This document shows positions 30,977 through 46,543 of a DNA stretch of 64,000 nucleotides, piece after piece. The notes beneath the pieces were generated by a model. That model saw only the letters and a list, made by a program, of their open reading frames with translations, did not search any database and was not told where the DNA came from. Numbering within the stretch: the first letter of the stretch is position 1; each line of letters opens with the position of its first letter. Source of the DNA: Arthrobacter sp. D5-1 (GTDB lineage: Bacteria > Actinomycetota > Actinomycetes > Actinomycetales > Micrococcaceae); contig NZ_CP014571.1 of assembly GCF_017357425.1 (NCBI RefSeq), positions 62,001 through 126,000 of the forward strand, in the 5' to 3' direction. A program made the translations under genes and the position numbers.

Positions 30977-32491
30977 ATGTCAACTGCACCAAAGACGGTC
31001 CAGTCGAAAGAATCGCCAGCCCTGAGTGAAAAAGGGCTGAAGGCCGGATCGGTGGGCCTCATCGGCGCCGTCGTGATCGGCGTTTCCTGTATCGCACCCG
31101 CCTATACGCTCACCGCGGCCCTCGGCCCCACCGTGTCCGAGGTCGGTGTGCACCTGCCCGCCATCTTCCTGGTGGGCTTCATCCCCATGTTGCTGGTGGC
31201 GCTGGGCTACCGCGAACTGAACAACGCAATGCCCGACGCCGGTACCTCCTTCACGTGGGCGACGCGCGCCTTCGGTCCGTGGATCGGTTGGATGGGTGGC
31301 TGGGGGCTGATCGCGGCCACGATCATTGTCCTCTCCAACCTGGCGGCTGTGGCGGTGGACTTCTTCTACTTGATGCTTGCCCAGATCTTCAGCAACCCGG
31401 AACTCGGTGAGCTCAGCAAGATCCTTCCGCTGAACATCGCCACCACGCTGGTGTTCATCGCCTTGGCTTGCTGGATTTCGTACCGCGGCATGGAGACCAC
31501 CAAGGGCGTCCAGTACGTGCTGGTGGCCTTCCAATTGCTGGTCCTGGGCTGGTTCGCAGTCTCCGCATTTGCCCACGTGGCAAACGGCACGGCTTTCGAT
31601 GCCACCGCAGTTTCACCTGACTGGTTCAACCCGTTCGCCGTGGACTCGTTCTCACAATTCGCCGCAGGTGTATCGCTCTCGATCTTCATTTACTGGGGCT
31701 GGGACGTCACCCTCACCATGAACGAGGAAACCAGGAATCCGGAGAAAACCCCAGGCCGCGCCGCGACCATCACGGTGCTGGTCATCGTGATCATCTATAT
31801 GACCGTTGCACTGGCTACCTTGTCCTTCGCCGGCGTCGGCGAGACCGGATTGGGTGCCGGAAACCCGGAAAACCAGTCCAGCATCTTCGCCGTGCTTGCC
31901 GGTCCAGTGATGGGTCCCTTTGCGATTCTGATGTCGCTGGCCATTCTGAGCAGCTCAGCGGCATCTTTGCAGTCAACGTTCGTTTCCCCGGCCCGAACCA
32001 TGCTGGCGATGGGCCACTACCGCGCCATCTCGCCGAAGTTCGGCAAGATCAGCCCCACGTTCAAGTCGCCCAGCTTCGCGACCATCGCCGCTGCGATCGC
32101 CGCCGCCGGTTTCTACGTGATCACCCGCACCGTGTCCGAGAATGCGCTGTGGGACACCATCACAGCTCTGGGCATGATGATCTGCTTCTACTACGGCATC
32201 ACAGCACTGGCCTGCGTTTGGTTCTTCCGGGCCGAGGCATTCCGCGGTGCGCGTTCGTTCTTCTTCAGGTTCCTGGCGCCCTTGCTGGGAGGCGTGATCC
32301 TGTTGGTCATGTTCGTCAAGACGGCCATGGACTCAATGGACCCGGAGTATGGTTCAGGCTCCTCTGTGGGCGGCGTGGGGTTGGTGTTCGTCCTGGGAAT
32401 GGGCGTGATCCTGCTGGGCGTCGTGATCATGCTGGTGATGTACAGGGTGCGGCCAGAGTTCTTCAAGGGCAAGGTTCTGACCCGGGCGTAG
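30977..32491 (+). CDS. APC-superfamily amino acid/polyamine permease
   Basis: This 504-residue transporter has about twelve helices. The typical APC opening is SVGLIGAVVIGVSCIAPAYTLTAALGP, followed by INGWMGGWG-like and SWDVTLTMNEETRNPEKTPG-like segments (here GWMGGWGLIAA and YWGWDVTLTMNEETRNPEK). Its position after putrescine oxidase suggests putrescine import. The last 29 bases overlap the 3' end of the convergent S9 peptidase gene. Confidence 0.87.
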   Translation: MSTAPKTVQSKESPALSEKGLKAGSVGLIGAVVIGVSCIAPAYTLTAALGPTVSEVGVHLPAIFLVGFIPMLLVALGYRELNNAMPDAGTSFTWATRAFGPWIGWMGGWGLIAATIIVLSNLAAVAVDFFYLMLAQIFSNPELGELSKILPLNIATTLVFIALACWISYRGMETTKGVQYVLVAFQLLVLGWFAVSAFAHVANGTAFDATAVSPDWFNPFAVDSFSQFAAGVSLSIFIYWGWDVTLTMNEETRNPEKTPGRAATITVLVIVIIYMTVALATLSFAGVGETGLGAGNPENQSSIFAVLAGPVMGPFAILMSLAILSSSAASLQSTFVSPARTMLAMGHYRAISPKFGKISPTFKSPSFATIAAAIAAAGFYVITRTVSENALWDTITALGMMICFYYGITALACVWFFRAEAFRGARSFFFRFLAPLLGGVILLVMFVKTAMDSMDPEYGSGSSVGGVGLVFVLGMGVILLGVVIMLVMYRVRPEFFKGKVLTRA

Positions 32492-34196
32492 CCTCGCGGG
32501 AAATGGACGCCGCGAAGGCGAGCACGGCAGCGGAGAAGTCCAGTACGTCCGGCGCTGCACGCTGGCCGTGACCACCACGGTCCTCGTGGAGCAGCCAGGC
32601 CCGGCCCCCGCGTTCGCGGATTCCGGTAACAACCTCCACGGCGGCTCTGTTGTCCACGCGTTCGTCACGCCCCAGGAGGCAGCACAGGAGGGGCGGAAGC
32701 GCGGCGGCGGAGCCAAGTCCGCCCACCACATGAACCGGGGAGTAGGCCGCCCGATCATGGTCAGAGCACTCCCCGTCGGCGCCAAACTCGTGCAGCCATT
32801 GCTTTCCCAAGCCATGGCGGTGAAGGTCCACGGTGTCCAGCAACGGAGCCACGGCCACCACTCCGCCGAATGAGGCAGGGGACAGGAGCGCTGCTGCCGT
32901 GACCACCAAGCCACCATGCGAGGCCCCGAACGGCACGGTCTGCCCGGGTGTCGTCCAACCGGCCGATGTAAGGAATCCGGCCACGTCGATGAGGTCCTGG
33001 ATGGTCCGCATCTTCCGTGGACCCCGGCCCGCCTCATGCCAGTCCCGGCCCATTTCCCCGCCCCCACGTAGTTGCGCAGCCACGTACACCCCGCCGCTCT
33101 CCAGCCACGCCGGCACGCTGGGTTCGGCCTCGGTCCTGTGTGTCACGCCAAAACCGCCGTAGCACGTGAGAATCAGGGGCAGTGGCCGCGCCGGGAGGCC
33201 GTCCGGCCCAAGGTCTGAAGCCCGTGCGGAGATGACCAGGGGGATGCCGACGCCGTCACTCGCCACCGCTGTGACCCTCTGATGGAGTATGTTGCCGCTG
33301 GGGTCTCTGGAACTTTCGTTCGAGCGCACCGGTTCATCCACACAGAAAACCCCCGATGGACGTTCCGGGGAGGCCGTCTGGAGCCAGAGGTCAGTGCCAT
33401 CGGCATGGGGTTGGATGGCGAAGGATGAGACGTATTCGGCTGGGGATAAACGGTACACGGGGCGGCTATCCAGTGTGACTGTGGTGCCGTGGTGGTCGGA
33501 GGCCAGTTCCACGCGGATCCCGCCGGCGGGCGCGGCGGTGGGATGCCAGGCCCCTGACTCCAACTCCCACTCTCTTGTTCCGGTCCCCGGGTTCTTCGCC
33601 GCCAGTCTGAGATTCCCCCTGGCGCGCGTCAGCGAGAGCCGGCTGCCCGTGGTGCTGCCAAGATCCGTTGGAAACGGGAGCTCCTGGGGGTGACCGGCGT
33701 CGAGCGGGCAATGCATGATCTGCTGGCAGGGCGGCTTGCCGGTCAAGACCCAGATCCCGCCACCGTCTGGCTCCCAAACCGGCGCAGCGTACCAAGCCGT
33801 CGCGCCCGGGATGTGGACCGGCTGCGTCCCGGCAGCGAGGATCCAGGTTTCCGCTAGTTCGCTGGCGGAGGTGCTCAGCAAGGCCGCGATACGCGTTCCG
33901 TCAGGGGAGATGGTGAATCCGCGGACAATGGTGCCCGGTGCCGTGGGGAGCCGGACGCCGGGCGGTGCAGCCACACCCGGGTGGGCCCGGCGAACATTCC
34001 AGGCATCCCGTAGCCCGGCCTCGGCTGCCAAGTGCAAGGACGCAAACGCTTCGCCCGGCCCGCGCCAAAGAAAGGCAGCCTGTCCGCCGGCGAACTGGGG
34101 GAGCCCTTGGCGGGGTGTGGAGTCCCAGCGTTCCAGGAGGGAACGGAAATGCGGCCGAAGTCCTCTGCCAGGAACGGCCTCCTCGAGGGTATTCAC
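32463..34196 (-). CDS. Prolyl-oligopeptidase-family (S9) serine peptidase of the RiPP locus
   Basis: This 577-residue protein starts at GTG 34196, which overlaps the stop of the beta-propeller gene (GTGA); the open frame extends to 34241. An N-terminal propeller-like part (about residues 1-330) precedes the alpha/beta-hydrolase domain. The triad is visible: Ser in VPFGASHGGLVV, Asp in LLGRDERVDN and His in LLHEDRGGHGQ. There is no signal peptide, so it is cytosolic. S9 enzymes cut short peptides after proline or similar residues, and the nearby precursor has a single Pro in ENPFD. A role in leader removal or peptide degradation is inferred. Confidence 0.85.
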   Translation of the reverse strand: MNTLEEAVPGRGLRPHFRSLLERWDSTPRQGLPQFAGGQAAFLWRGPGEAFASLHLAAEAGLRDAWNVRRAHPGVAAPPGVRLPTAPGTIVRGFTISPDGTRIAALLSTSASELAETWILAAGTQPVHIPGATAWYAAPVWEPDGGGIWVLTGKPPCQQIMHCPLDAGHPQELPFPTDLGSTTGSRLSLTRARGNLRLAAKNPGTGTREWELESGAWHPTAAPAGGIRVELASDHHGTTVTLDSRPVYRLSPAEYVSSFAIQPHADGTDLWLQTASPERPSGVFCVDEPVRSNESSRDPSGNILHQRVTAVASDGVGIPLVISARASDLGPDGLPARPLPLILTCYGGFGVTHRTEAEPSVPAWLESGGVYVAAQLRGGGEMGRDWHEAGRGPRKMRTIQDLIDVAGFLTSAGWTTPGQTVPFGASHGGLVVTAAALLSPASFGGVVAVAPLLDTVDLHRHGLGKQWLHEFGADGECSDHDRAAYSPVHVVGGLGSAAALPPLLCCLLGRDERVDNRAAVEVVTGIRERGGRAWLLHEDRGGHGQRAAPDVLDFSAAVLAFAASISREATPGSEPCP

Positions 34197-35416
34197 CGTC
34201 CCACCGTGTCGCCCGGCGCTGCGTCCACAGCAGATACCCAAGCGAGGTGGCCGCCGTCGTGCAGGGGGCTGCCCAGGGTGATGGTGCGCAGGGGGCTACC
34301 GGCCGCTGATGTGTCCACTACGTGCAGTTCGCCATGTCCACCGCGCGTCACGGCGACGAGTTCCGAGGACGGTGAGGCGGCAATGGCGCGTCGTTCGGCG
34401 TTGTCCCAGGGTTCATTGCCGGGCCGTGGGGCGCCGTCCATGTGGGGGAGATCCCACGTGCCCCGCAGCGCCGGTGGGCCTGCCTCCAGCGGTCCAAGGT
34501 GGTGCACCGAAAGCTCGTCGCCCTCCGGATGGACGCGGGCGGTCGCGATGCCGTTGGCAGTCAGCGCGAAACGGAAGACCAACCCCTGGCCCAGTGGTGT
34601 GGTCTGCGTCAGCCCGGTATCCAGGTTGTGCACCCACAAAGTGTTGCCCCATTGGGCCCAGTCTCTGGGCTCCCCGCCACCGTGGCGAAGGACGGCCACC
34701 AGGACACGCCGCCCCGGGCAGAAGCGCAGGAAGTAGGCGCGGCCGGGAGCATCCCACGCGATGGCCTGGAGGGCCTCCGGCTGCGGCTTGCGGATGTCGA
34801 AGCGTTCCAGGCCCTGGCCCGTGGCCACGAACATGGTGCCCGTGACGGGATCGAAGGCGTCGCCGTGGCCGTCGGGGGAGGCCTCAGCCCGCAGCCCTTG
34901 CATGGGCGGGCAGTGCACTCCTTCGGCCAGGATCCGCTCCACGCTGAAGGATTCGATGCCGCCGGGTTCGCGGTGACGCACGACGGCGGCAGGCCCCTCT
35001 GGCGTTTCGCCCACCACGACGCCAGGCTCCCCCGCCCTGGTGCGGATGCGGCGTGAGGTTGGTCCGCCGTCGGACTCCAGGTCCACAACCGTGAGGAGAT
35101 CGCTCCAAGGTTCCCAGGAGACACCAAGCCCGGTGGTGACGGCAATGAAGCGGCCCGAGGGGTCGCAGGCCAGGTGCTCACCCGGGATGGCCACCGGAAT
35201 GGTGCGGAGCGGGGTGTTGGTGAAGGCATCGGCGATGACCAGGGCACCTCCGGCGTCGTCGATGAACGCGCATCGTCCGCCTCCCAACGGCAGGAACCCG
35301 GCGTGCTCCGCCAGGACCACGGAGTCCAGGCGGCGCTGGACTGCCCCGGTGACCGGATTCAGGAACTGTACGTTGCCTGCTTTTTGGTCGGCGACCACCA
35401 AAACTTCGGAGTTCAT
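34193..35416 (-). CDS. YncE/lactonase-like beta-propeller protein of the RiPP locus
   Basis: This 407-residue protein consists of repeating four-stranded blades (VLVVADQKAGNVQFLNPVTG, ALVIADAFTNTPLRTIPV, TMFVATGQGLERFDIRKP, ELHVVDTSAAGSPLRTITLG), which resemble YncE or WD-like propellers. It has no signal peptide, so it should be cytosolic. GGGAG precedes the ATG at 35416, and the Zur-like box lies 23 bases upstream, so it should be derepressed together with the precursor operon. It might bind the peptide or the metal; no catalytic residues are recognised. Confidence 0.7.
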   Translation of the reverse strand: MNSEVLVVADQKAGNVQFLNPVTGAVQRRLDSVVLAEHAGFLPLGGGRCAFIDDAGGALVIADAFTNTPLRTIPVAIPGEHLACDPSGRFIAVTTGLGVSWEPWSDLLTVVDLESDGGPTSRRIRTRAGEPGVVVGETPEGPAAVVRHREPGGIESFSVERILAEGVHCPPMQGLRAEASPDGHGDAFDPVTGTMFVATGQGLERFDIRKPQPEALQAIAWDAPGRAYFLRFCPGRRVLVAVLRHGGGEPRDWAQWGNTLWVHNLDTGLTQTTPLGQGLVFRFALTANGIATARVHPEGDELSVHHLGPLEAGPPALRGTWDLPHMDGAPRPGNEPWDNAERRAIAASPSSELVAVTRGGHGELHVVDTSAAGSPLRTITLGSPLHDGGHLAWVSAVDAAPGDTVGR

Positions 35417-35436: not shown

Positions 35437-35464
35437 TTTGAGAATGGTTCTCATTAACTATAGT
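35437..35464 (+). promoter_or_regulatory. Sigma-A-type promoter of the peptide operon, overlapped by the Zur-like box
   Basis: TTTGAG (35437-35442; TTGAGA shifted by one) and TATAGT (35459-35464) are spaced by 16 (15) bases, a good vegetative promoter. The metal-regulator box covers the -35 hexamer and most of the spacer, so a bound repressor would exclude RNA polymerase. Confidence 0.65.
35439..35453. promoter_or_regulatory. Fur-family (Zur-like) operator 1
   Basis: TGAGAATGGTTCTCA is a 7-1-7 palindrome with one mismatched pair. It lies between the divergent propeller/peptidase genes and the precursor peptide gene. The layout fits actinobacterial Zur boxes (TGAAAATGATTTTCA type) and not IdeR/DtxR boxes. 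A near copy lies at 46529-46543. Confidence 0.7.
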
Positions 35465-35696: not shown

Positions 35697-36428
35697 ATGG
35701 GCACCGCAATAGACAGCTTTGACGTCGCGGGAAGATCAACCATCCGCAGCGGTGACGGCGCCTTCTTTCATCTCCCACCCTCGGCAGGCAGTGGCCAGAA
35801 CCTGGCGACAGGCATCAGCGACGAACTGCTGCAACGCCGCCAGGCTGGTGCGCGTCCCCTCGCCGGACGGGAGCGAATCGGGCTGGTAGCCCCCGAACCC
35901 GTTGCTGCCGCACTCCTGCCGGTGTTCCACGAGGCCGGGCTTGAACTGACGGTGGGTGACGACCGGGGACCCGGCTCCGTAGGACTCCTCCTCCACCTGG
36001 CGGCTACGCCCGCCGAGCGGAACCGCTTTGAGGCACTGCCGGGGGGCCGTGCGGCCGTGCTCCGCTTCTACGGAGAAGGCGACCTGGTCTTCGTAGATCC
36101 GCTGGCTCTTGAACCGGCAGACCCAACAGGGTGGCAGGTACTCCGGCGCAGGCTCGCAGCCTCACCGGCCGCCGCCGAACTGAGGGCCTGGCTGGATACG
36201 CCCGCTGCTGCCGCGGACTTCGCTCCCCAAGGGGTAGCCATGGACCTGCTCACGGCCAGACTGCTCACCATCATCACCGCTTGGCAAAGGAATTCGCCGT
36301 CACTTGCCGCTCACCGCCGTAGGCTCTGGCGGCTGGACACCCTGACGTTGGCAGCCAGCGAACATCCCGTTCTGCCCTTCCCGGAACCCGCCAGCCTGGG
36401 CGAGGGCTTGCGGGCTCCGCTGCCATGA
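35697..36428 (+). CDS. Unknown protein in the azoline cluster (candidate leader-peptide-binding partner of YcaO)
   Basis: The 243-residue protein starts at ATG 35697 behind GGAAGGAA; the open frame extends to 35685. I recognise no catalytic motif. It lacks the CxxC zinc motifs and glycine-rich loop of ThiF/E1-like proteins. N-terminal residues 10-45 (TIRSGDGAFFHLPP) and the segment LRFYGEGDLVFVDPLAL could form a RiPP recognition element-type winged helix or a reduced cyclodehydratase C protein. It is coupled to the CocE-like gene by ATGA. Azoline-forming YcaO enzymes normally need a partner protein, and this is the only candidate in the operon. Confidence 0.5.
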   Translation: MGTAIDSFDVAGRSTIRSGDGAFFHLPPSAGSGQNLATGISDELLQRRQAGARPLAGRERIGLVAPEPVAAALLPVFHEAGLELTVGDDRGPGSVGLLLHLAATPAERNRFEALPGGRAAVLRFYGEGDLVFVDPLALEPADPTGWQVLRRRLAASPAAAELRAWLDTPAAAADFAPQGVAMDLLTARLLTIITAWQRNSPSLAAHRRRLWRLDTLTLAASEHPVLPFPEPASLGEGLRAPLP

Positions 36429-37534
36429 GACCCGCCACTGCGCCGGATCACCTGGACATCACCGCTGACGACGGCGTTCGGCTCACCGCAGACCACTACC
36501 GCGCACCGGCGGAAGGGGAAGCCCAAGGGGCGGTCCTGATCCGGACACCCTACGGCCGGGCCCAGTACGCGGCCCAAGCCCACGCATGGTGCCGTGCCGG
36601 ATACGACGTAGTGGTCCAGGACGTCCGGGGGCGCTACGGGTCCGCCGGCGCATGGAATCCCTATGACAAGGAGGGCGCGGACGGAGCTGCAACCGTCCGC
36701 TACCTCGCCGGGAACGGGTTGCTCAGGGGCCCCCTCATTCTGGCTGGAGCCTCCTATGATGCCCACTGCGCAGTTGAAGCAGCACGGGTTCTGGAGAAGG
36801 AACGGGCTCCGGAGGAAACACGGCGTCCGGTGGCAGCCGCTCCCAAACCCCTGGCCGTGGTGGCGATGGTGCCGGCGCTGGGCCTCTGCGAAACAGCCAG
36901 GGAACCTGATGGCACACCGCGCCTGCGGGACCGGATTGGTTGGTGGCACCAGCACGGTTTCGGCAAGGAGTCCGGCCACCCTTTACCTGCCGCAGAGCTC
37001 CGGCGGATATACCGGCAGGCTGAGGAGCGCGGGATGGACTGGATGATTCACAACCTCATGGATGACGCCACGTATGGTCCGGGGTCCACCGCTGGTTGGA
37101 AGCGGCTCTGGGACGCCACACCAGCCGATCTTCACGCCCTTTATGGCCAGCTGAACACGCCGCTCCTGATGATTTCGGGACAACGGGACTTCTTTGTTGC
37201 CGAAGCTGCGAACCTGGTGAGGGCCTGGGGCAGCGCAGCACCGCGGACCTTGGTGGAAACCCTTTGGGGACCATGGGGACACCGACTCGCCAACGACCTC
37301 GGCGCCGGAGCCGCCGCAGCACTCCGCCAACAGGGTGGCCTGATGGCCCGGATCAAGGACTTTCTGGCTGCCGCCAGCGGCTGGGATCCAAACGGCGCCC
37401 AGCCCGGGCCCCTTGGAGACCGCCGCCCACCAGTCCTCCAGTGGGAACCCGGCGACCAGCCACACACATGGCACTGGGCGCCTGCGACCCCCGAGACGTT
37501 GCCGCACCACCTGAACAACCACGGAGAATCATGA
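36425..37534 (+). CDS. CocE/NonD (X-Pro dipeptidyl-peptidase S15)-family hydrolase
   Basis: This 369-residue alpha/beta hydrolase has the family signatures VLIRTPYGR (oxyanion Tyr43), VVVQDVRGRYGSAG and the nucleophile elbow LAGASYDAHCA with Ser110. A C-terminal WGPWGHRLAND segment supplies the likely catalytic His. The family cleaves esters, amides and X-Pro peptides. In this operon it may trim or hydrolyse the modified peptide. It is shorter than typical CocE enzymes, which carry an extra C-terminal jelly-roll. It overlaps both neighbours by 4 bases. Confidence 0.78.
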   Translation: MRPATAPDHLDITADDGVRLTADHYRAPAEGEAQGAVLIRTPYGRAQYAAQAHAWCRAGYDVVVQDVRGRYGSAGAWNPYDKEGADGAATVRYLAGNGLLRGPLILAGASYDAHCAVEAARVLEKERAPEETRRPVAAAPKPLAVVAMVPALGLCETAREPDGTPRLRDRIGWWHQHGFGKESGHPLPAAELRRIYRQAEERGMDWMIHNLMDDATYGPGSTAGWKRLWDATPADLHALYGQLNTPLLMISGQRDFFVAEAANLVRAWGSAAPRTLVETLWGPWGHRLANDLGAGAAAALRQQGGLMARIKDFLAAASGWDPNGAQPGPLGDRRPPVLQWEPGDQPHTWHWAPATPETLPHHLNNHGES

Positions 37535-38922
37535 CCACAACAGCCGAAACCCTGGGCCTGCTTCCCTTGCACACCTTGGTGGACGAGCAGACCGGGATCA
37601 TCCGCAGGGTCCGTCCCGTTCTCACCCCGGAGAACGCCCCACCCGCATACACGTCCATGACCGCGGAGGTATCGAACGCGCGGTGGCTGGGAGACTGGCC
37701 CGCCGACCGCGTTTCACTGGGCACCACGTTCGGCGACAGCCGGCAAGCCTGGATCGCGGCCGTCGCCGAAGGCATGGAACGGTACTGCGGCAACTTCATC
37801 CCCGCAGACCTCCCGGACCACCACTACTTCACCGGGACGGCCCGTGAGCTGACGGCGTCAGGCCGGGCCGCCGTCGGGCTTGAACAACTGCCGCGATTCG
37901 CGGACTGGCAGCTGGAGCGTGCGGCATTCCCCTACCGGAACCTCGACGCCGATACTCCCGCGCTGTGGACAGCGTGCAGGCGGGAATCTGACAGCTCGGA
38001 GGTGTGGCTTCCTGCGAGCCTCACCCTCCTGAACTGGCGGCAACGGCGCTTCCGTGACCTCCCGCGGATCCATCATCTGAACTACGCGGGGATCGCCACC
38101 GGGCAGGGCCGCGCTGATGCCACGGACAGGGCGGTGCTGGAAACCATCGAACGCGACGCCCTGGAACTGTGGTGGCATTTGGACGGTCCCACCCGCGGTA
38201 TCAGGCCGGAGAGTGTTCCCGGGCTGGTGGACGCCATGGCCGGTTGCTGGCTGCAGTACTGGGTGGTGGAAATGCCCAGTGAGTTCGCACCCTGCATGGC
38301 GGCCCTGGTGTTCGATCCGGACACGGGGCTGTACGCCGCCGGATTCTCCTGCAAGAACGAACCCGCTGAAGCGGCACGCAAGGCAGTCCTGGAGGCTGTC
38401 CACACCTGGATCTACTCCCAAGGTGCCACCGACGCGGACGGTTGGGTGTTCCAAGCGGTGGAGGCAGGGCTCATGGCCAAGGGGCTGTACTTGGAACACC
38501 GTGAAGACCGTCAATACCTGGACGACGTGGGGCCCGGGTTCGGTTCAGTCCGCGACCTCGGTGCGCATGTTCAGGTGTGGCTTGATCCCCGGACACACGT
38601 CCTTGCGGAACGCTTCACCAAGCCCGCAGGTGGGCTGGTGGACATTGCTGCCGTGGATGACGTGTCCATGCCGGAGCTCTACAGGCGGCTGGAATCGGCC
38701 GGCCACACCGTCTATACCCGTGAACTGACCACTCCCGACGTCGCGGCGACCGGCCTGAGTGTTGTCCGCGCCGTGGTGGGAGGGCTGGTTCCCAACGCAC
38801 CGGCCGCTTTCGCCTACCTCGGCTGCCGCAGGTTCGCCACGGCGGCGTTGGAGCGCGGGTGGCGTGAAACGGCGCCGGCCCTGCCTGAGGACTTCACCCT
38901 CACCCCGCCTCCCCACATGTAA
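37531..38922 (+). CDS. YcaO-domain azoline-forming cyclodehydratase
   Basis: The ATG at 37531 overlaps the preceding stop (ATGA); the frame is open further upstream but reads through the hydrolase gene in another phase. The 463-residue protein has the YcaO ATP/Mg motifs: AVAEGMERYCG (Glu80, Glu83), AVLETIERDALELWW (residues 202-215) and CKNEPAEAARKAVLEAVH (274-291). Its C-terminus is proline-rich (PALPEDFTLTPPPHM), as in azoline-forming YcaO enzymes that use a PxPxP tail. It should cyclise Ser/Thr side chains of the precursor onto the peptide backbone with ATP. Confidence 0.9.
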   Translation: MTTTAETLGLLPLHTLVDEQTGIIRRVRPVLTPENAPPAYTSMTAEVSNARWLGDWPADRVSLGTTFGDSRQAWIAAVAEGMERYCGNFIPADLPDHHYFTGTARELTASGRAAVGLEQLPRFADWQLERAAFPYRNLDADTPALWTACRRESDSSEVWLPASLTLLNWRQRRFRDLPRIHHLNYAGIATGQGRADATDRAVLETIERDALELWWHLDGPTRGIRPESVPGLVDAMAGCWLQYWVVEMPSEFAPCMAALVFDPDTGLYAAGFSCKNEPAEAARKAVLEAVHTWIYSQGATDADGWVFQAVEAGLMAKGLYLEHREDRQYLDDVGPGFGSVRDLGAHVQVWLDPRTHVLAERFTKPAGGLVDIAAVDDVSMPELYRRLESAGHTVYTRELTTPDVAATGLSVVRAVVGGLVPNAPAAFAYLGCRRFATAALERGWRETAPALPEDFTLTPPPHM

Positions 38923-40052
38923 TGGACGTCCCCCACGTACTCCTAGCCCCAGGATTTGCCCGCGCCTGGAGCCACGAGGTTCCCGGTCCCGTGCAGCCGC
39001 CCGGCCCTCAAGGTTCCCCGGCGTCCGGCACAGTTGAGAGCCAGCGGCATGATGGGCTCCCGGTGGCCGCCATGCTGCGGGCCATCTGGTGGAGCGAGGA
39101 CTTCCACCCGAATCCCGCAACCGGCCTGCCCGGGAAGGTGCGGAAACGCCCAGTGCCGTCGGCCGGCGGGTGCTACCCGGTGCAACTGCGGGTCCTCTGC
39201 GGGGAAGGCTGCGACGTGCCGCCCGGAACATACGTGTTTAACGGCACCGGATTCAACGGCAGCGGCGGTGAGCTGCTACGCCTGCGGAACCACGACGACG
39301 GTCTGCGGGCACCCGCGCGGGGCGCCGTCGTCGTGCTGACCGTGCTGCCGCAGCGAACCCTGGCAAAGTACCACCACCGTGCGGGTCCGCTGCTGATCGC
39401 GGATACTGCCTACGCGGCGGTGGCCTTGGTTCACCATGCCGCTGCCCGGGGTGTGGACGCCCGGTGGGATGCCGTGGCACCCCGCCGTTGGCCGGGCTCT
39501 GTTCCGGAGTTCGCGCTGGCCACGGTCTCTCTGGGAGTGTCCCCGGCGAGGTGCCGGCAGCCCCGCCATGACCGGATCGCCGGGGTTTCGGAGGCGCAGC
39601 TGGCTGCCCGCAGGAGCTGTGGGTTATCCCGCTTGCGTGCCCGCCCGGCCGCCGACGCAGGCCGGGTGGTTGGGGAACTCCTGGACCGTTCCTTCCTTTC
39701 CTTCCCGCAGCCAGCCCCTTCGTCCTGCCGTGCCCGGGTCCTGTCCGCGGAGTCGCTCCGTGATCCGGAACTAGCCGATCGATGTGCCGGGCAGTCCTGG
39801 GTCAGGAGCCTCGACGCCCTGTTGGTTTTCGAGATCCTGGGCACGCCAACCCCGGCTGCCATGTGGTGGACCGCCACGTTGGCCGCTCATATCCTCTACA
39901 CCGCGCTTGGCGCGGACCTGCCCCTGGAATTTCGTCCGGTGGGCGGTTGGACCGGCTCCCGCTGCGGCTGGACCACACTCCATGGGCTGGGCGTAGCAAT
40001 CCGGAAACCACTCACCACAAACCACGAAAGGGCCGCGAATGCTGGTCAATAA
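38922..40052 (+). CDS. SagB-type FMN azoline dehydrogenase
   Basis: This 376-residue nitroreductase-fold protein has the SagB signature RKRPVPSAGGCYPVQL (about residues 75-89) and the Lys149-Tyr150 pair in TLAKYHHRAGPLLIADTAYAA. That pair is catalytic in azoline dehydrogenases. A C-terminal nitroreductase-like region (CGWTTLHGLGVAIRKP) completes it. It should oxidise azolines to azoles with FMN. Its ATG shares a base with the YcaO stop, and its end overlaps the ABC gene by 14 bases. Confidence 0.85.
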   Translation: MDVPHVLLAPGFARAWSHEVPGPVQPPGPQGSPASGTVESQRHDGLPVAAMLRAIWWSEDFHPNPATGLPGKVRKRPVPSAGGCYPVQLRVLCGEGCDVPPGTYVFNGTGFNGSGGELLRLRNHDDGLRAPARGAVVVLTVLPQRTLAKYHHRAGPLLIADTAYAAVALVHHAAARGVDARWDAVAPRRWPGSVPEFALATVSLGVSPARCRQPRHDRIAGVSEAQLAARRSCGLSRLRARPAADAGRVVGELLDRSFLSFPQPAPSSCRARVLSAESLRDPELADRCAGQSWVRSLDALLVFEILGTPTPAAMWWTATLAAHILYTALGADLPLEFRPVGGWTGSRCGWTTLHGLGVAIRKPLTTNHERAANAGQ

Positions 40053-41784
40053 GAGGCTCTTCCAAATGACGGCTGGGCACCGCGGCCGGCTGGCTGGAGT
40101 GACAGCCCTGCTCTGCGTCACCACGGCGAGCTACTGGTTGCAGGCGTGGTTCCTGGCCCAGGCCCTGGCGGCGCTGGTGGTTCTGGTGCGGGTTCCCGGA
40201 AACCCCGACGGCGGCACGTACGTGCCGCTGGCTCCCTACCTTGCCGGGGTTCTCGCCTGTGGCCTGGGGCGCCTTGTGATCCAGCAGTTCCACGCCCGGC
40301 TTGCCAGTTCTTTGGGCTCCGGGGTGCGGTTGCAGGTACGACGGAAGTTGGCCGACAGCCTGCTCCAGCCCGAACGACTCAGGGATACCTCGGACCGCGG
40401 CGGAGCCCGGCGGCTGGCCCTGAGCGAGGGTGTGGACGGAGTGGACAGCTACATCAGCCAGTACATCCCCCACGCTTTCCAAGTGCAGATAGTGGTGCCC
40501 GCGCTTCTTGTCTGGATCGCGTGCCTGAATCCCTTGCTGGCACTCGCCTTGGCCCTTGCCGTGGCCGTGGCTGTTGGTGCGCCGAAACTCTGGGGAAAGG
40601 CCTTGGCGAAACGCGGAAAGCAGCACTGGGACAGTTACGAGGCACTCAGTGCCGACTTCCTGGAGGCCCTTCAAGGGATGCGGACCCTCAAGATCCTTCA
40701 CGCGGTTCCCCGGACCAGGGCGCGGCTCCATCACAGGTCCCAAGAGCTTCATAAAGCAACCGTGTCCACCATGCGCACGTCCTTGGTGGACACGGCGTTG
40801 GCGGACTTCGGAATCCAGTCAGGGATGCTGGCCGCCGCCGCGCTGGCCGCATACGCAGCGCTGGGGCAGCGGCCGTTGCCCGGACCGGAGACTGCGGCGA
40901 TCACGTATTTCCTGCTGATGCTCTCGTCGGAAGTTTTCAGGCCGGTGCGGGATCTTGCACGGCAATGGCATGCCGGGTATCTGGGGCTCTCGGCCTTGGG
41001 CAGTATTGACGCGGCGGGAGGCGCGGACGCCCGCGGCGATAGCACGCTGACGGGCGAGGGGCAGGCGCGTTCCGCGCAAGTAGACCCTTCCGCGCCCGGG
41101 ATGCGCCCCGGCGTCGTGCCTCCCGGTCGTCTCACTCTGCAGAACGTGAGCTTCCGATACTCAGCTGCGGACCCCTGGGTTCTGCGGGATGCGTCGGCGG
41201 AGATCCAGCCCGGCGGCCTCACCGCGCTGGCGGGGGTGTCAGGGGCGGGGAAGAGCACACTGTTCGATCTTCTGCTGGGTTTCCTGCCGGCGGGGGAGGG
41301 CCGTATCCGCCTGGACGGTCAACCACTCAGGCCAAGTGACGTCAGCGTGGTCTCACAACGCAGCTACCTCTTTCCGGGGACCATCCGGGAGAACCTCCGC
41401 GTGGTGGCGCCTGCTGCTACGGAGGAGGAGATCCAGCGTGTCGTGGAGATTGCCGGCCTGGCAGACGATCTGCGGCAGTGGCCCCACGGGCTGGACACTG
41501 TGCTGTCCGAAGGGGGCGGATCCGTCTCGGGAGGCCAGCTCCAGCGGCTTTCGATTGCACGGGCACTCCTGGTGGACAGGCCGGTTCTCCTGCTGGACGA
41601 GCCAACGTCCGCCCTCAACACCGAGCTCGCTGGGCGGGTGTTGGAGGGGCTTCGCCGCGAAGCCGGACGCCGGATTGTGCTCATGATCGCCCACCGGCCC
41701 GAAGCCCTCGCTGCCGCGGACACCGTACTCCGCCTGGCACACGGCCAACTCCACACACAGCAACAGGAAGCAGCCACGTTATGA
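40039..41784 (+). CDS. Exporter-type ABC half-transporter 1 (CydD-like)
   Basis: This 581-residue protein has an N-terminal six-helix membrane domain (to about residue 310) and an ATPase domain with VSGAGKSTLFDLLLG (Walker A), VSGGQLQRLSIARAL (signature) and PVLLLDEPTSALN (Walker B). It resembles CydD-type half-transporters. It probably pairs with the next gene product to export the mature peptide. It is translationally coupled on both sides, and no C39 peptidase domain is present. Confidence 0.88.
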   Translation: MLVNKRLFQMTAGHRGRLAGVTALLCVTTASYWLQAWFLAQALAALVVLVRVPGNPDGGTYVPLAPYLAGVLACGLGRLVIQQFHARLASSLGSGVRLQVRRKLADSLLQPERLRDTSDRGGARRLALSEGVDGVDSYISQYIPHAFQVQIVVPALLVWIACLNPLLALALALAVAVAVGAPKLWGKALAKRGKQHWDSYEALSADFLEALQGMRTLKILHAVPRTRARLHHRSQELHKATVSTMRTSLVDTALADFGIQSGMLAAAALAAYAALGQRPLPGPETAAITYFLLMLSSEVFRPVRDLARQWHAGYLGLSALGSIDAAGGADARGDSTLTGEGQARSAQVDPSAPGMRPGVVPPGRLTLQNVSFRYSAADPWVLRDASAEIQPGGLTALAGVSGAGKSTLFDLLLGFLPAGEGRIRLDGQPLRPSDVSVVSQRSYLFPGTIRENLRVVAPAATEEEIQRVVEIAGLADDLRQWPHGLDTVLSEGGGSVSGGQLQRLSIARALLVDRPVLLLDEPTSALNTELAGRVLEGLRREAGRRIVLMIAHRPEALAAADTVLRLAHGQLHTQQQEAATL

Positions 41785-43442
41785 GCCTCACCGCACGCAC
41801 ACCCCGCAACCCGCTCCTGGGTTTGGTTCCGCACATGTCCGGCGAGTGGGCAGGGATAGTGTGGACCGCCGTTGTGGGCATCCTGAACAACCTGGCCCTC
41901 ATTGTCCTGGCGGTGGTGGGCTCCTACGTTGTGGCGCTGGCTGTGATGAGGCAGGAGCCCGCAGCCGCCGAATGGTGGGTTGCCGGGGCGGCGGCCGTGG
42001 TGTTCAGGGCGGTGTTGACGTGGCATGAGATGGACATCTCGCACAGCATCGCGTACCGGATCCTGGCCGCGCTGCGCATGGCGCTCTTTGACGGTTTCGC
42101 GCGCGGCGTCCCTTCCCGCACGCCGGACCAGCACACCGGAAAACTCGCCGCCACGGCCATGGGCGATGTTGAAAAGCTGGAGTTCTTCTACGCCCACACG
42201 GTTGCCCAGCTGGCTGGCTCCGCAGTGCTGTTCGTGGCCGGGGTGGCTGCGGTGTGGCCGCTGGGGCCGGGCCTGGCCGTGGCCTTGCTGCTGGGGTTCG
42301 TGGCGCTGGTGGCGGTGACGCTCCCGGGATTGCGCCGGGGCGCCGTGCTGGGGGCGAGGGTGCAGGAGGCCAGATCCGGGGTGTCGGTACTCGCCGTGGA
42401 CCTGCTGGCCGGCACCCGCGAGATCCTGGGTTTCGGACTGCGGGAGCACGCGCAACGCCAACTAAAGGAACAGAGCCTGGCAGTGGATGCCGGCCAGCGC
42501 AAGCTCAATTCCTTCCTTGCCTTGGCAGCGTCCTTGCGCGAGCTGTGTGTCCTGGGCACCGTGGTGGCGGTCTTCGTCGCCGCCATCTCACAACCCGGAC
42601 TGGATTCTGTGTGGTTGCCCGCCCTGGTTGCCGGCACTCTGACTCTCCTGGCTCCAGTGGCCGAGGGCGTTGCCACCGTAACCCAGCTCCAGCCGCACCG
42701 TGCCAGCGCCCAGCGCGTTGGGGAGGGCATCAGCCTGCCCTCGGCCGCAAAGGTTTCGGGGCCCCTCGTGGAGTTCAGCTCCCAAGGGCCGCTGGGTCTG
42801 GAGGTCCGGAACCTGCAGTTCACGTACGACGACGGCGCGCCGGCTTTGCGCGCGACGTCCCTGTCCGTGGCGCCCGGCGAGCATGTGGGGATCAGCGGCC
42901 CATCCGGTGCAGGAAAGACCACGTTGGCCCGGTTGTTGGTGCGCCTGTGGGTGCCGGATTCGGGGAGTATCTCGCTGGTGTCGCGCAGCGGGGAGTCCGT
43001 GGACGCCTGGGCCGTGGACGAGGCGTCGTTCCGGCGTATGGTCACGTTGGTGGAGCAGGACGCCCCGGTTTTCCATGGTTCCGTCCTGGACAACATGCGC
43101 CTGGCCCAGCCCACGGCAACTGAAGCCGACGTCCTGTCAGCCTTGGACCTGGCCGGGCTTCCGCTCGCTGGCGAACGATGGGCGGATGGCGTGGATACTG
43201 TGATCGGCGAGCAAGGGGTGAGCCTGTCCGGTGGTGAGCGTGCCCGCTTCTGTTTGGCGAGGGCCCTGCTGATCAAGCCGAAGATTTTGGTGCTGGATGA
43301 AACCACAGCAAGCCTGGACCCTGCCTCGGAGCGTGCTTTGGTGGAGGCTGTTGCTGCAATCGCCGGCGACACCACGGTAATCACCGTGTCCCACAGGGAG
43401 TCCACCCTGGCCGCATGCCACCGGCGGGTGCAGCTGGGCTAG
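41781..43442 (+). CDS. Exporter-type ABC half-transporter 2 (CydC-like)
   Basis: The ATG at 41781 overlaps the stop of the first half-transporter; the frame is open upstream to 41478 but lies inside the previous gene. The 553-residue protein has a membrane domain followed by ISGPSGAGKTTLARLL, VSLSGGERARFCLARAL and KILVLDETTASLD. It forms a heterodimer with the preceding protein by inference. It is the last gene of the operon and ends at a strong hairpin. Confidence 0.88.
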   Translation: MSLTARTPRNPLLGLVPHMSGEWAGIVWTAVVGILNNLALIVLAVVGSYVVALAVMRQEPAAAEWWVAGAAAVVFRAVLTWHEMDISHSIAYRILAALRMALFDGFARGVPSRTPDQHTGKLAATAMGDVEKLEFFYAHTVAQLAGSAVLFVAGVAAVWPLGPGLAVALLLGFVALVAVTLPGLRRGAVLGARVQEARSGVSVLAVDLLAGTREILGFGLREHAQRQLKEQSLAVDAGQRKLNSFLALAASLRELCVLGTVVAVFVAAISQPGLDSVWLPALVAGTLTLLAPVAEGVATVTQLQPHRASAQRVGEGISLPSAAKVSGPLVEFSSQGPLGLEVRNLQFTYDDGAPALRATSLSVAPGEHVGISGPSGAGKTTLARLLVRLWVPDSGSISLVSRSGESVDAWAVDEASFRRMVTLVEQDAPVFHGSVLDNMRLAQPTATEADVLSALDLAGLPLAGERWADGVDTVIGEQGVSLSGGERARFCLARALLIKPKILVLDETTASLDPASERALVEAVAAIAGDTTVITVSHRESTLAACHRRVQLG

Positions 43443-43486: not shown

Positions 43487-43495
43487 TTGGAGGGC

Positions 43496-44515
43496 TTAGA
43501 ACGCGTCGGGGTGGAGGCCCTTGGCGATCTGCTCCACGGCGCGGAGGTTGCCCCAGGTTCCGGGCATGACGTCATCGGAGTCGACGGCCACCAATCGCTG
43601 GTTCTTCACTGCGTCTACCTCAGGGAACTTCTCCTGAAGGAAGGTGCGGGTGGCGTCCTCGTGGGCCTTGTCCAAGGTGGTGAACACGATGACCTCGGGG
43701 TTCTTCTGTACAAGTGTCTCCGGAGAGATCATGGCAGAGAAGAACGTGGCGAAGGCTTCATCGGACGGGCTGAAGAGGTTCTCGCCACCGGCAGTCTTGA
43801 TCATGTCGTACTCGATTCCCGCCCCGATGGCCGCAATGGAGTTCCCCTCAACAAACAGCTCCACCACGGTGGGCTTCTCTTTGCCTTCCACCTTTGATGC
43901 AACCGAAGCCAGCATCTCAGCTGCTTCCGTCCGAACGGCTGACGTACGCTCACCCGCGCCAACCACAGCGCCGATGTTCTCGATATCCGTGAGGATGTCC
44001 TTGACCTCGGCCTTGCTCCGGCGTTCCATGCAGCCCGCCGTTGCTATGTAGGACTCAGAGCCTGCAGCTTTGAGTTGTTCGATGCTCGCAAAGCCCTGCT
44101 CGGCAGTGAACTCATACGCTGTGGGGGAGTAGACGAAATCGGGGTTGGCGCCCAACAGGACTTCGCGCGACGGCGGCATCTGATCACTCAACCGCTGCAC
44201 GTTACCGCGCTCTTTAAGTTCCGGCAGCAGCTCGCTGCCTTTGCTCTGTGCCTCGGCCACTACCTTGTCCGCGGCGCCCAGCTTCACCAACAGCTCGGAC
44301 TGTCCGGGAGTCATGGCCACCACCCGCTGGGGCACGGAGGTGAAGGTCAGGGTGCGGCCGCAGTTCTCGATTGCTCCCGCGGGCTGCGCAGCGACACCGG
44401 CGTTTTCCTTGGCAGGTGTTTGGCTGACCGCTTGACCGCAGCCGGACAACAGCATTCCGCTGAGTGTCATCACGCTCAGGACCGCAGCGGTTTTGGGCAG
44501 GGTGGATTTCTTCAT
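43496..44515 (-). CDS. FecB/BtuF-like substrate-binding lipoprotein of a metal-chelate importer
   Basis: The ATG at 44515 follows GGAGG; the open frame reaches 44560. The 339-residue protein has a lipoprotein signal with lipobox LLSGCG. A cluster C binding fold follows (RVVAMTPGQSELLVKLGAADKVV, REVLLGANPDFVYSP, SAMISPETLVQKNPEVIVFTTL). Such proteins bind siderophores, cobalamin or other chelates. Because the importer shares its operator with the peptide cluster, the mature peptide or its metal complex is a candidate ligand. A described family of putative F420-0 importers is similar, so that is an alternative. Confidence 0.85.
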   Translation of the reverse strand: MKKSTLPKTAAVLSVMTLSGMLLSGCGQAVSQTPAKENAGVAAQPAGAIENCGRTLTFTSVPQRVVAMTPGQSELLVKLGAADKVVAEAQSKGSELLPELKERGNVQRLSDQMPPSREVLLGANPDFVYSPTAYEFTAEQGFASIEQLKAAGSESYIATAGCMERRSKAEVKDILTDIENIGAVVGAGERTSAVRTEAAEMLASVASKVEGKEKPTVVELFVEGNSIAAIGAGIEYDMIKTAGGENLFSPSDEAFATFFSAMISPETLVQKNPEVIVFTTLDKAHEDATRTFLQEKFPEVDAVKNQRLVAVDSDDVMPGTWGNLRAVEQIAKGLHPDAF

Positions 44516-44556: not shown

Positions 44557-45378
44557 TCAATGGCGGGCGGCGGAGAAGTCCGCATCCTGGCTGGGCGGGG
44601 GCGTCTGTTCCGGCGTCTTCGCTGCAATGGCGATCAGCGCCCGCCCGGTCAAAGGATGCTCCAGCGTCCGGGATTCAACACCGAAACAGCGGCGGACCAG
44701 TTGGGGGTCCAGCAGCGTTGACGGCGGACCGAAAGCCTGCAGCCGCCCGGACTGCAGCACTGCCACCTGGTCACAGAATTCAGCCGCCAGGTTCATGTCA
44801 TGCAGGGCGGCCAGCACGGTCCTTCCCCGCGAAGTGACCAGATGCATGAGCTCCAGTTGGAAGGCGACATCGAGGTGGTTGGTAGGTTCGTCCAGGACCA
44901 GGACCGGTGCTTCCTGAACGAGCGCCCGCGCCAGGAGGACCCGCTGCTTTTCCCCGCCGGACAACCCCGCAAAGTAGCGGTCCGTCAGGGAGGAGGCTCC
45001 GACGTCGAGCATTGCTTGGTGGACGAGGTGGTGATCCCGGTCTGAATCCGCACCAAACCCGCGCTGATGCGGGGCGCGGCCCAGCATCACAACCTCGCGG
45101 GCCGTCATGGGAAAGTCCTGACTGGATTCCTGGGCCATCACGGCCACGCGGAGCGCGGCCTGCCGGGAGGTAAGGGCGCGAACATCCCGGCCGCCTATGG
45201 TGACGGTCCCCGAGGTGGGTTTGTTCACCCGGTACAGGGCACGCAAAAGAGTGGATTTGCCGCATCCGTTGGGCCCCAGAATGCCAACCACGGAGCCGCT
45301 GGGTGCAGTAAAAGTGACGTCGTGAACCACCGGAGTGCCGCCAAGGGCGATGCTGACGTTGAGGAATTCCACCTTCAT
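44557..45378 (-). CDS. FecE/FhuC-like ABC importer ATPase
   Basis: This 273-residue protein starts at ATG 45378 (MKVEFLNVSIALGG), overlapping the permease stop by 4 bases; the open frame extends to 45423. It has GILGPNGCGKSTLLRALY, the Q-loop region VMAQESSQDFPM, the signature LSGGEKQRVLLARAL and LVLDEPTNHLD. It drives the type II importer made with the flanking permease and binding lipoprotein. Confidence 0.93.
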   Translation of the reverse strand: MKVEFLNVSIALGGTPVVHDVTFTAPSGSVVGILGPNGCGKSTLLRALYRVNKPTSGTVTIGGRDVRALTSRQAALRVAVMAQESSQDFPMTAREVVMLGRAPHQRGFGADSDRDHHLVHQAMLDVGASSLTDRYFAGLSGGEKQRVLLARALVQEAPVLVLDEPTNHLDVAFQLELMHLVTSRGRTVLAALHDMNLAAEFCDQVAVLQSGRLQAFGPPSTLLDPQLVRRCFGVESRTLEHPLTGRALIAIAAKTPEQTPPPSQDADFSAARH

Positions 45379-46493
45379 CGTTTGATGCCACCCCTTACAG
45401 CGCCGTTGCCGCGCATGAGCCACAGGAAGAAGGGCGCTCCGACGGCAGCGGTGAGGATGCCCAACGGAATCTCGGCCGGTTGCGCCACCGTGCGGGCCAG
45501 CAGGTCAGTGAGCATGAGGAAAAGAGCCCCGCCAAAGATGGTGACGGGCAGCATGCGGCGGTGATCGGAGCCCACCAGCATGCGCGCGGCGTGCGGCACC
45601 ACCAAGCCAACAAATCCGATGCCGCCGCACACGGCAACCGTGGTGGCAGTCAGTAATGCCGTGGCCAGCAAGAGTGTCCGACGCAGCGATTCCACGTTGA
45701 CGCCCAGGGCCGTGGCCGTTTCGTCGCCGGCCAGGAAGGCGTTCAGCGCGCGGGATCGGAACATCGCGAAGACGCTGATGGCCACGAGTGCCACGCCCGG
45801 CAGCAGCAGTTGCGGATAGGTGGCTGCGGAAACGCTGCCCAACAGGAAAAACAGCACACTGTAGACGTTCTGGGCGTCGGTGGTGATGGTCAGGAAGTTG
45901 GTGATCGCGGAGAGGAGTGAGCCCAACGCCACGCCTGCCAGGATGAGCCGGGAGGGTGCAATCACGCCATCCTGTTTCGCGAGCAAGTACACCAGGGCCG
46001 TCGCCGCCGCAGCTCCCGCGAATGCCGACGCGTTCAAGCCCAGCCCGCCCACCGCCGTCGAGCCTGCCACGATGGCCAGAACGGCTCCCACTCCCGCCCC
46101 GGCTGAAACACCCAGAATGTAAGGCTCGGCGAGTGGGTTGCGGACGTTCGCCTGGAGCAGGGCTCCGGCCAGCGCGAGGCTGGCCCCGGCAATGCCGGCC
46201 AGGAGCGCCCGGGGGAGCCGGAAGCTCCACACGGCTTGGTCCTGGGACACGGTGAGCGAGCCGTCCGACATCCATGGCAGGCCAGGGATCAGGTGCCCGG
46301 CCATGATCCGCAGCGATTCCAAAAACGTTGTTTGCAGCGGCCCGGTGCTGCCCGAAACCACCAGAAGCACAACGATTCCGAGCACCAGCATTGGTGTCAG
46401 CAAGCGTTCAAGCACTGACCTGCGTGGGCGGGCGGGGCCGGCTGATGGGGCGGGGCGGTTGCCGCTGACTGGGCGTTCGAGGTCAGCGGTCAT
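45375..46493 (-). CDS. FecCD-family importer permease
   Basis: This is 372 residues from ATG 46493 (the open frame reaches 46505). About ten helices carry the family motifs RLPRALLAGIAGASLALAGA and NPLAEPYILGVSAGAGVGAVLAI. A GxG-type VGLVVPHAARMLVG loop contacts the ATPase. It is the first gene of the importer operon, and the Zur-like box 46529-46543 stands 36 bases upstream. Confidence 0.93.
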   Translation of the reverse strand: MTADLERPVSGNRPAPSAGPARPRRSVLERLLTPMLVLGIVVLLVVSGSTGPLQTTFLESLRIMAGHLIPGLPWMSDGSLTVSQDQAVWSFRLPRALLAGIAGASLALAGALLQANVRNPLAEPYILGVSAGAGVGAVLAIVAGSTAVGGLGLNASAFAGAAAATALVYLLAKQDGVIAPSRLILAGVALGSLLSAITNFLTITTDAQNVYSVLFFLLGSVSAATYPQLLLPGVALVAISVFAMFRSRALNAFLAGDETATALGVNVESLRRTLLLATALLTATTVAVCGGIGFVGLVVPHAARMLVGSDHRRMLPVTIFGGALFLMLTDLLARTVAQPAEIPLGILTAAVGAPFFLWLMRGNGAVRGGIKR

Positions 46494-46528
46494 GGAGGAG
46501 TCCAATCACGCCCTGACACTATCTTAAA

Positions 46529-46543
46529 TGAGAATGATTCGCA
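46529..46543. promoter_or_regulatory. Fur-family (Zur-like) operator 2
   Basis: TGAGAATGATTCGCA is a 7-1-7 palindrome with one mismatched pair, extended by A/T on each side. It differs from the box at 35439 by only two bases. It should place the importer operon under the same metal-dependent repressor. Confidence 0.68.

Follow-up and report, generated by a model that had tools for sequence, protein, structure and literature searches.

The closest described system is the streptamidine (ami) cluster of Streptomyces albidoflavus (PMC8442711). A precursor with the core HLSATH gives rise there to a peptide with a six-membered amidine in which Ser and Thr are unmodified by NMR, and this peptide, streptamidine, is a major product both in its native host and in heterologous ones. 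The YcaO protein AmiD is needed for the amidine peptide, AmiB is predicted to be TruD-like (RRE/E1-like) and to partner the YcaO protein, and AmiC is a proposed leader peptidase, a role inferred by the authors. The ALV stretch of the follower was suggested as a recognition sequence. AmiE is essential, yet streptamidine carries no oxidation; hydrolysis of an oxidised part is one option that the authors list for this puzzle, and the amiE mutant gave oxazoline-like shunt products. More than 230 species carry clusters of the streptamidine type. Metal import was already proposed for the cluster. For none of Fe, Co, Cu, Mg, Mn, Ni and Zn did CAS assay or LC-MS detect binding, and an amiD mutant behaved like the wild type under metal starvation (PMC8442711).

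Arthrobacter sp. D5-1 carries a streptamidine cluster, a known and widespread kind of bacterial RiPP locus, in the window, the 64,000-nt stretch of DNA that was analysed (Table 1). An earlier sequence-only reading named the same genes in the same order, and all of them are open; its statement that no described system has this composition is wrong: the family was described in 2021 with these genes, and metal import was put forward for it then (PMC8442711).

Table 1. Genes and Zur-type boxes of the Arthrobacter sp. D5-1 ami locus (window positions).
Feature	Position	Strand	Evidence or placement
S9 (prolyl-oligopeptidase family) peptidase	32463..34196	-	PF00326, 90.7 bits, scored on the longer frame 32463-34241
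amiX-like protein	34193..35416	-	divergent from amiA; tblastn relatives
Zur-type box TGAGAATGGTTCTCA	35439-35453	+	22 nt from amiX, 67 nt from amiA
amiA, streptamidine precursor, 33 aa	35521..35622	+	NF040714, 65.9 bits (cut-off 40)
amiB	35697..36428	+	tblastn relatives; role from PMC8442711
amiC, CocE/NonD family hydrolase	36425..37534	+	TIGR00976, 83 bits (cut-off 66.3)
amiD, YcaO protein	37531..38922	+	PF02624, 137.6 bits (cut-off 25.7)
amiE, flavin-dependent dehydrogenase-like	38922..40052	+	TIGR03605, 22 bits (cut-off 78.4)
amiT1, ABC half-exporter	40039..41784	+	PF00005 and PF00664
amiT2, ABC half-exporter	41781..43442	+	PF00005 and PF00664
FecB-type substrate-binding lipoprotein	43496..44515	-	PF01497, 66.4 bits; lipobox LLSGC by eye
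FecE-type ATPase	44557..45378	-	PF00005, 118 bits
FecCD-type permease	45375..46493	-	PF01032, 294.4 bits
Zur-type box TGAGAATGATTCGCA (+ strand letters)	46529-46543	-	35 nt upstream of the importer operon

The AmiA precursor is recognised by the NCBIfam family NF040714. AmiD, a standalone YcaO protein, belongs with the ami-type YcaO proteins through PF02624 and 60-97% identity to the YcaO proteins of the best 80 of 167 loci, and scores 190 bits against TIGR03604, under the cut-off of 219. Gene order and homology likewise assign amiB, amiC, amiE, amiT1 and amiT2 to the family, and the family's FecBCDE importer is represented by a version of three genes, one of them for the single permease. The labels first given to the S9, CocE, YcaO, ABC exporter and FecB/FecCD/FecE genes agree with Pfam and NCBIfam matches, some NCBIfam scores being under cut-off; the exporter halves score highest with CydD (319 bits) and CydC (257 bits), both in that category. 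The SagB label of amiE holds as a distant likeness and no further, given its TIGR03605 score, and the amiX-like "propeller" exists as a gene while no Pfam or NCBIfam family stands behind the name. Profile searches matched no such family to amiB, the "unknown" protein of the earlier reading, or to the amiX-like protein, which at E up to 5 has a single sub-threshold Pfam match. From its position beside the cluster, the latter probably corresponds to published amiX. Among solved structures its profile found no convincing relative (best E 0.032). A kinship of amiX with the zinc chaperone AztD, which shares the predicted regulon, was considered and rejected (hhalign probability 0.6%).

Relatives were taken as the best 80 of 167 YcaO loci. 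In these, tblastn found amiA in 75, amiX in 73, amiB in 74, amiC in all 80, amiE in 78 and each exporter half in 77; a FecE-like match in 77 may include other ABC ATPases. The S9 peptidase has relatives in 16 of the 80, none of them in Streptomyces. The amiA search drew a blank in five loci (L021, L028, L045, L085 and L087), in four of which the contig ends near the cluster or within it; in L028, from Austwickia, about 10 kb upstream is without a match to amiA or amiX, and the importer box is present. Across 396 genomes of the phylum, an NF040714-positive amiA was found in three, Arthrobacter sp. D5-1 included, and a related YcaO protein (E <= 1e-20) in five.

The AmiA core is HLSATH and the follower SNALVENPFD. 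Its identity with the published S. albidoflavus core makes streptamidine, a peptide with a six-membered amidine, the expected product rather than an azole. The core holds one Ser and one Thr, and Cys is absent from the precursor. In 83 core units from the 75 amiA-bearing loci, His1, Ser3 and His6 are invariant (83/83). Three of the six core positions vary, as do two of ten in the follower, whose consensus SNALVENPF[D/E] is nearly invariant.

The two boxes of Table 1 lie where the sequence-only reading had placed Fur-family sites, and both have the 7-1-7 operator form that fits published actinobacterial Zur motifs. Counted by eye, the 35439 box matches the quoted znuA motif TGANAANNNTTNTCA at 10/10 positions and the 46529 box at 9/10; each matches the S. 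coelicolor Zur ChIP motif at 10/11. The former is so placed that it could control both divergent directions, amiX and amiA. Significance could not be drawn from the window alone, where a scan with three mismatches gave a chance-level result (four matches, a mean of 2.39 expected, and 23 of 100 shuffles reaching four). It comes instead from the conservation of the box across relatives and from the company it keeps genome-wide.

The neighbourhood survey of YcaO relatives that the earlier reading had called for bears this out. TGANAANNNTTNTCA at 8/10 or better precedes amiA in 73 of 75 loci, against 31/1500 shuffles and 19/1500 windows from the same loci; at 9/10 or better the counts are 47/75, 1/1500 and 12/1500. 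Each shuffle resamples the same 250 nt by a Markov-1 scheme and is not an exact doublet shuffle, and the control windows, drawn from the same loci, include real importer boxes. The Zur ChIP motif at 10/11 or better precedes amiA in 60/75 loci (1/1500). The 75 loci are bound by kinship, with Streptomyces in the majority, and are not independent. In the amiX-amiF1 gap of the Streptomyces type, TGANAANNNTTNTCA reaches at least 8/10 in 55/55, a count outside the shuffle control, which covers the amiA side only.

In the Arthrobacter genome, four of five two-strand box matches are promoter sites, those of amiA, the importer, aztD and a CobW_C GTPase gene. AztD scores 444 bits with NF038015 (cut-off 400); the CobW-type GTPase has the CobW_C domain and stays under NCBIfam cut-offs, and its box fits the Zur ChIP motif at only 7/11. 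A loose pattern gave 25 strand matches against 12 for the reversed control, so many single matches are due to chance. Genes were read at seven of the 20 box places (L001, L002, L003, L009, L015, L016 and L019), the remaining 13 being one-strand matches; L003, which falls within an open reading frame, was set aside as chance. The genome encodes two ZnuA-family proteins, its znuA has weak boxes only, and one of its two Fur-family genes neighbours an ABC-3 permease gene and a ZnuA gene, the other a catalase gene.

Five other ami genomes hold 17 exact sites. Eleven have ami or zinc-type company: six lie at ami, two at ZnuA, two at CobW and one at a divergent FUR/CobW pair. Of the other six, without a firm zinc link, two lie at SBP_bac_5 proteins and one each at a FecCD permease, PhoX and an MFS gene; the last is an unclear site. 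Reversed-pattern controls gave 0, 0, 1, 0 and 0; genomes and search patterns were picked after the ami boxes had been seen. In S. coeruleorubidus a second pattern marks three places, an ABC-3 permease/ATPase pair, ami and a FUR regulator (control 0). The operator is common to known zinc genes, AztD and the CobW_C GTPase in Arthrobacter and ZnuA, CobW and FUR elsewhere. Motif fit, conservation before amiA and zinc-gene company support the Fur-family metal control first proposed, with zinc as the most likely metal, and we conclude that the locus probably encodes a Zur-controlled zinc-starvation RiPP. The words 'Zur' and 'promoter' are absent from the main text of PMC8442711. The searched open-licence literature, in which subscription journals are mostly absent, yielded no paper joining streptamidine to Zur.

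A FecCD gene accompanies 76 of the best 80 of 167 loci, and the four without one are contigs of 3.7-11.3 kb. Two distinct importer types occur, usually behind a Zur-type box: FecCD identity to that of the window is at most 39% in 57 loci and at least 62% in 19, the latter including two Streptomyces loci (L034 and L072). A box scoring at least 16 stands just upstream of 10 of the 19 three-gene importers; the other nine follow amiX and S9 on the same strand and, judged by these positions, could share one divergent box, so that a separate box at every importer was rejected. In the four-gene type (amiF1-F4), so called after PMC8442711, tblastn found FecE and FecCD, and the FecB query had no match; in L110 inspection by eye picked out one FecB-like lipoprotein. 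Oddly for a mere importer role, deletion of amiF1-F4 abolished streptamidine production in S. albidoflavus (PMC8442711).

More distant loci vary the arrangement. L139 joins, in one run, a gene for a CobW-type GTPase, a 37-aa peptide ORF containing NSNHHSHSSALG, a YcaO gene, two exporter halves and FecCD/FecB/FecE, adjoining fragments that resemble a Fur-family gene. It follows the ami logic in a different layout and was the only such locus in a class-wide search (1/399). L140 has a FecB-type protein (PF01497, 77.4 bits) at the contig edge and no FecCD match within the 18 kb read. The best box in L139 is 8/10 and none in L140 reaches 8, so the evidence for a Zur link comes from the closer relatives.

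By analogy with S. albidoflavus, AmiA would be modified by AmiD with AmiB and AmiE, AmiC would trim it to the amidine peptide HLSATH, and AmiT1 and AmiT2 would export it; product and gene requirements are established there for the identical core, and single steps are partly inferred (PMC8442711). Motif and regulon make it very probable that zinc-loaded Zur on both boxes shuts off the divergent amiX-S9/amiA-T2 promoters as well as that of the importer, and that zinc shortage opens them. In the simplest case streptamidine, or a longer or later form, may bind zinc with the two invariant histidines and the amidine as ligands, and the FecBCD-type importer may take the loaded peptide back, a recapture that falls just short of being probable. 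As a whole, a Zur-controlled ami cluster whose product serves zinc starvation is the likely explanation. The conserved operator points to zinc starvation as the candidate signal, and its Zur-type form suggests a role for the peptide in enduring zinc shortage.

What the peptide does under this control can be read in several ways. Importer and invariant histidines are suggestive of zinc binding and return to the cell, and a recaptured zincophore is plausible. It is quite possible, and put forward tentatively, that streptamidines are ribosomal amidine-ring zincophores in a Zur-controlled make-export-recapture loop, widespread in actinobacteria, with two distant FecBCD-type importers serving the same peptide. 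The published data speak against this and partly contradict the metal chelator of the earlier reading, since binding was detected for none of seven metals and no starvation phenotype appeared (PMC8442711). Those assays may have seen nothing because other zinc importers, such as the two ZnuA-family proteins here, can cover, or because the active form is not the trimmed peptide. The same null results, together with undetected antimicrobial activity and the authors' own suggestion of signalling or development (PMC8442711), favour an exported signal or other zinc-shortage tool, sensed or cleared via the FecB-type protein. This is a rather doubtful though serious possibility, as a chelate-type importer in nearly all loci and two invariant histidines fit uptake better, and two importer types suggest selection on import itself. 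It is unlikely that the true ligand is larger or different, with the follower or an AmiE-oxidised form in the active compound and the HLSATH-amidine as its trimmed product. The follower does vary less than the core, and AmiE is essential for an unoxidised product, with loss of an oxidised part by hydrolysis among the options; however, streptamidine is a major product in both kinds of host, and a recognition sequence, the role suggested for ALV, would likewise be expected to stay invariant (PMC8442711).

The preferred reading of zinc as the signal meets a quite improbable rival in which the boxes serve a Fur-, PerR- or Nur-type regulator of iron or another metal and the importer takes up iron chelates. 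The 7-1-7 box is common in the Fur family, the importer has FecBCD homology and an 'iron transporter' annotation, and a further FecCD gene with a box occurs in Nocardiopsis; but the inspected sites share the box with ZnuA, AztD, CobW, FUR and ABC-3 genes, the box fits published Zur motifs, and actinobacterial iron is mostly under DtxR/IdeR. The azole-bearing histidine peptide chelator of the sequence-only reading, made by YcaO and SagB, is very improbable indeed. A YcaO protein and a distantly SagB-like dehydrogenase are present and the amiE mutant made oxazoline-like products, but the NF040714 match and the amidine published for the same core, with Ser and Thr unmodified (PMC8442711), led to the azole being rejected, and a precursor without Cys and a TIGR03605 score far under cut-off also speak against it.

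The J1074 ami cluster of S. albidoflavus shares with the Arthrobacter locus the NF040714 precursor family, the amiA core HLSATH, amiB-E, amiT1, amiT2, an amiX-like gene and a Fec-type importer (PMC8442711). Here the importer is a convergent three-gene operon behind its own box, whereas there amiF1-F4 lie between amiX and amiA, and the S9 peptidase gene is extra in Arthrobacter. The zincophore NRPS locus of S. coelicolor likewise places metallophore-type biosynthesis under 7-1-7 Zur boxes, and the word 'YcaO' is absent from its description (PMC5472717). Its product is a non-ribosomal peptide, unlike the RiPP here. We take the product of that Zur-controlled NRPS to be coelibactin, and we know of no other ribosomally made zincophore with an amidine ring. 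Bottromycin and klebsazolicin have a YcaO-made amidine ring, as in streptamidine (PMC8442711). Their precursors are other than those of ami. To our knowledge, both are antibiotics without an importer or zinc-type control. Methanobactin is a copper RiPP metallophore. Bufferins are described as RiPP metallophores of copper stress. Both are metal-handling ribosomal peptides whose metal, copper, and enzymes differ from those of ami: as far as we know, they are made with MNIO enzymes, with neither YcaO nor amidine.

All of the genes proposed by the sequence-only reading are present in the window, at their positions and in their order. The peptide gene leads an operon in which the six genes that follow it overlap or abut: the first encodes an unknown-family protein, the next three a CocE-type hydrolase, a YcaO and a protein distantly resembling SagB, and the last two are ABC half-exporters. 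An S9 peptidase and a protein without a known family are divergent from this operon, and the FecB/FecE/FecCD importer is convergent with it on its right. The two predicted 15-base boxes are likewise in place.

Coordinates of the features discussed
Feature	Location	Position	Description
Peptide gene (amiA)	window	35521-35622	33 residues; first in operon
Box before amiA	window	35439-35453	15 bases
Box before importer	window	46529-46543	15 bases
Ordinary gene run	window	11369-19711	two PASTA kinases, penicillin-binding protein, FtsW/RodA-type protein, PP2C phosphatase
tRNA-Leu (cag)	window	21320-21403	
Distant YcaO operon	L139, genome G105	2765-13142	YcaO 33% identity
His-rich 37-aa ORF	L139, genome G105	11672-11785	contains NSNHHSHSSALG; peptide by our reading

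The boxes resemble published Zur motifs. The passages of PMC5472717 used here give the S. coelicolor Zur ChIP motif, tGaNNatSatNNtCa, and taaTGaNAANNNTTNtCANta, a motif quoted for actinobacterial znuA genes; each window box matches 10 of the 11 positions in the ChIP motif as given there. The search covered the 250 nt upstream of amiA in 75 loci, with Markov shuffles and windows from the same loci as controls (1500 each). The core of the quoted znuA motif is matched at 8/10 or better in 73/75 loci, against 31/1500 shuffles and 19/1500 same-locus windows, and at 9/10 or better in 47/75, against 1/1500 and 12/1500, respectively. The quoted ChIP motif is matched at 10/11 or better in 60/75 loci against 1/1500. 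The Streptomyces layout has a second box between amiX and amiF1 (at least 8/10 in 55 of 55), and the box before amiA on the annotated Rhodococcus rhodochrous plasmid pNit scores 10/10.

Several of the genes that share these boxes elsewhere are of the zinc type. The box pattern, with up to two mismatches, gives 25 strand hits at 20 places in the window's own genome, against 12 strand hits for the reversed control. Matches on both strands occur at five of these places, namely the two ami boxes, one site within coding sequence, and the promoters of AztD (NF038015, 444 bits) and a CobW_C GTPase. Of the two Fur-family genes in this genome, one neighbours a ZnuA gene as well as an ABC-3 permease, the other a catalase. 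Five other ami genomes, picked by the author, hold 17 exact sites of TGANAAYNRTTNTCA, with 0, 0, 1, 0 and 0 in reversed controls. Six lie at ami, two at ZnuA, two at CobW, one at a divergent FUR/CobW pair, two at SBP_bac_5 proteins and one at another FecCD; the remaining three are PhoX, an MFS gene beside an ArsR-like frame (judged by eye) and an unclear site. A second pattern, with at most one mismatch, marks three places in S. coeruleorubidus: an ABC-3 permease/ATPase pair, ami and a FUR regulator. Because of this company of AztD, CobW, ZnuA, FUR and ABC-3 genes, the window boxes are very probably Zur operators, and the earlier guess of zinc was a good one.

Streptomyces sp. HM190 and S. coeruleorubidus carry an exact Zur-like box close upstream of an SBP_bac_5 protein, possibly another zinc or metallophore importer; in Nocardiopsis metallicus such a box lies upstream of the PhoX alkaline phosphatase gene.

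Candidate genomes, one per species, contained 167 YcaO relatives. Among the best 80, tblastn matched amiA in 75 loci; four of the five without a match are cut contigs. The fifth, in Austwickia sp., has the importer and its box, but neither amiA nor amiX was matched there by tblastn. All 83 core units in the 75 loci follow the pattern H-x-S-x-x-H and then SNALV[EA]NPF[DE] (HDSASH 28, HLSATH 23, HLSASH 17, HASASH 8, HASATH 6, HLSSTH 1). One genome, G144, has three ami YcaO matches with nearly equal scores near contig ends, reflecting either several copies or an assembly effect. FecCD was matched in 76 of the same best 80 loci, the four without a match all being short contigs, and falls into two types. 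In 57 loci it has at most 39% identity to the window's and the layout is that of the published amiF1-F4, while in 19 loci identity is at least 62%. In two Streptomyces loci, L034 and L072, the importer is of the second type and lies downstream, and amiX and amiA are immediate neighbours. That one importer can take the place of another beside the same cluster is an argument that import as such is important.

Two outer relatives share parts of this plan. On one strand, L139 encodes a leading CobW-type GTPase (186.6 bits), the small ORF, a larger YcaO, two exporter halves, FecCD, FecB and FecE. Its divergent stretch gives weak Fur-family matches in two frames (best E 6.6e-4), with no Pfam match in one frame. 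This single genome supports the zinc link through gene company, not a strong box. L140 (genome G113) has two tandem YcaO matches, CocE, exporter halves and, at the contig edge beside the exporter genes, a FecB-type binding protein; no box was found at the locus.

Read from gene anatomy, a cell short of zinc would produce a small peptide containing His, export it and then recover it. Such recapture of zinc has a little under an even chance of being right. Against its take-back step stand the negative metal-binding tests of streptamidine and the silent amiD mutant, as reported in the portion of PMC8442711 used here. A Zur-controlled role other than chelation is the less probable reading, though a substantial one. 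These negative results may reflect redundancy with znu-type importers, since the window's own genome encodes two ZnuA-family proteins, or LC-MS may have missed a zinc complex that is too weak or forms too conditionally. It is also possible that the active form differs from the trimmed peptide; the follower, which is less variable, and the requirement for AmiE, which is unexplained, point to this last option.

The window peptide matches NF040714, 'streptamidine family RiPP', at 65.9 bits (cut-off 40). According to the sections of PMC8442711 used here, streptamidine and its cluster were described in 2021, with amiX, amiF1-F4 (FecBCDE), amiA, amiB, amiC, amiD (YcaO), amiE (flavin dehydrogenase), amiT1 and amiT2. 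The published core, HLSATH, is that of the window, and the product of the published cluster carries a six-membered amidine joining the His1 N-terminus to the Leu2 carbonyl; neither Ser nor Thr is modified. An identical core that yields an amidine makes the azole peptide of the sequence-only reading very unlikely, and the published cluster overturns its statement that no such system had been described. The observation is genuine and well drawn, and concerns an already known family. What is new, within the literature searched, is the conserved Zur-type control of ami clusters, which makes an orphan, very common peptide a testable zinc-starvation system.
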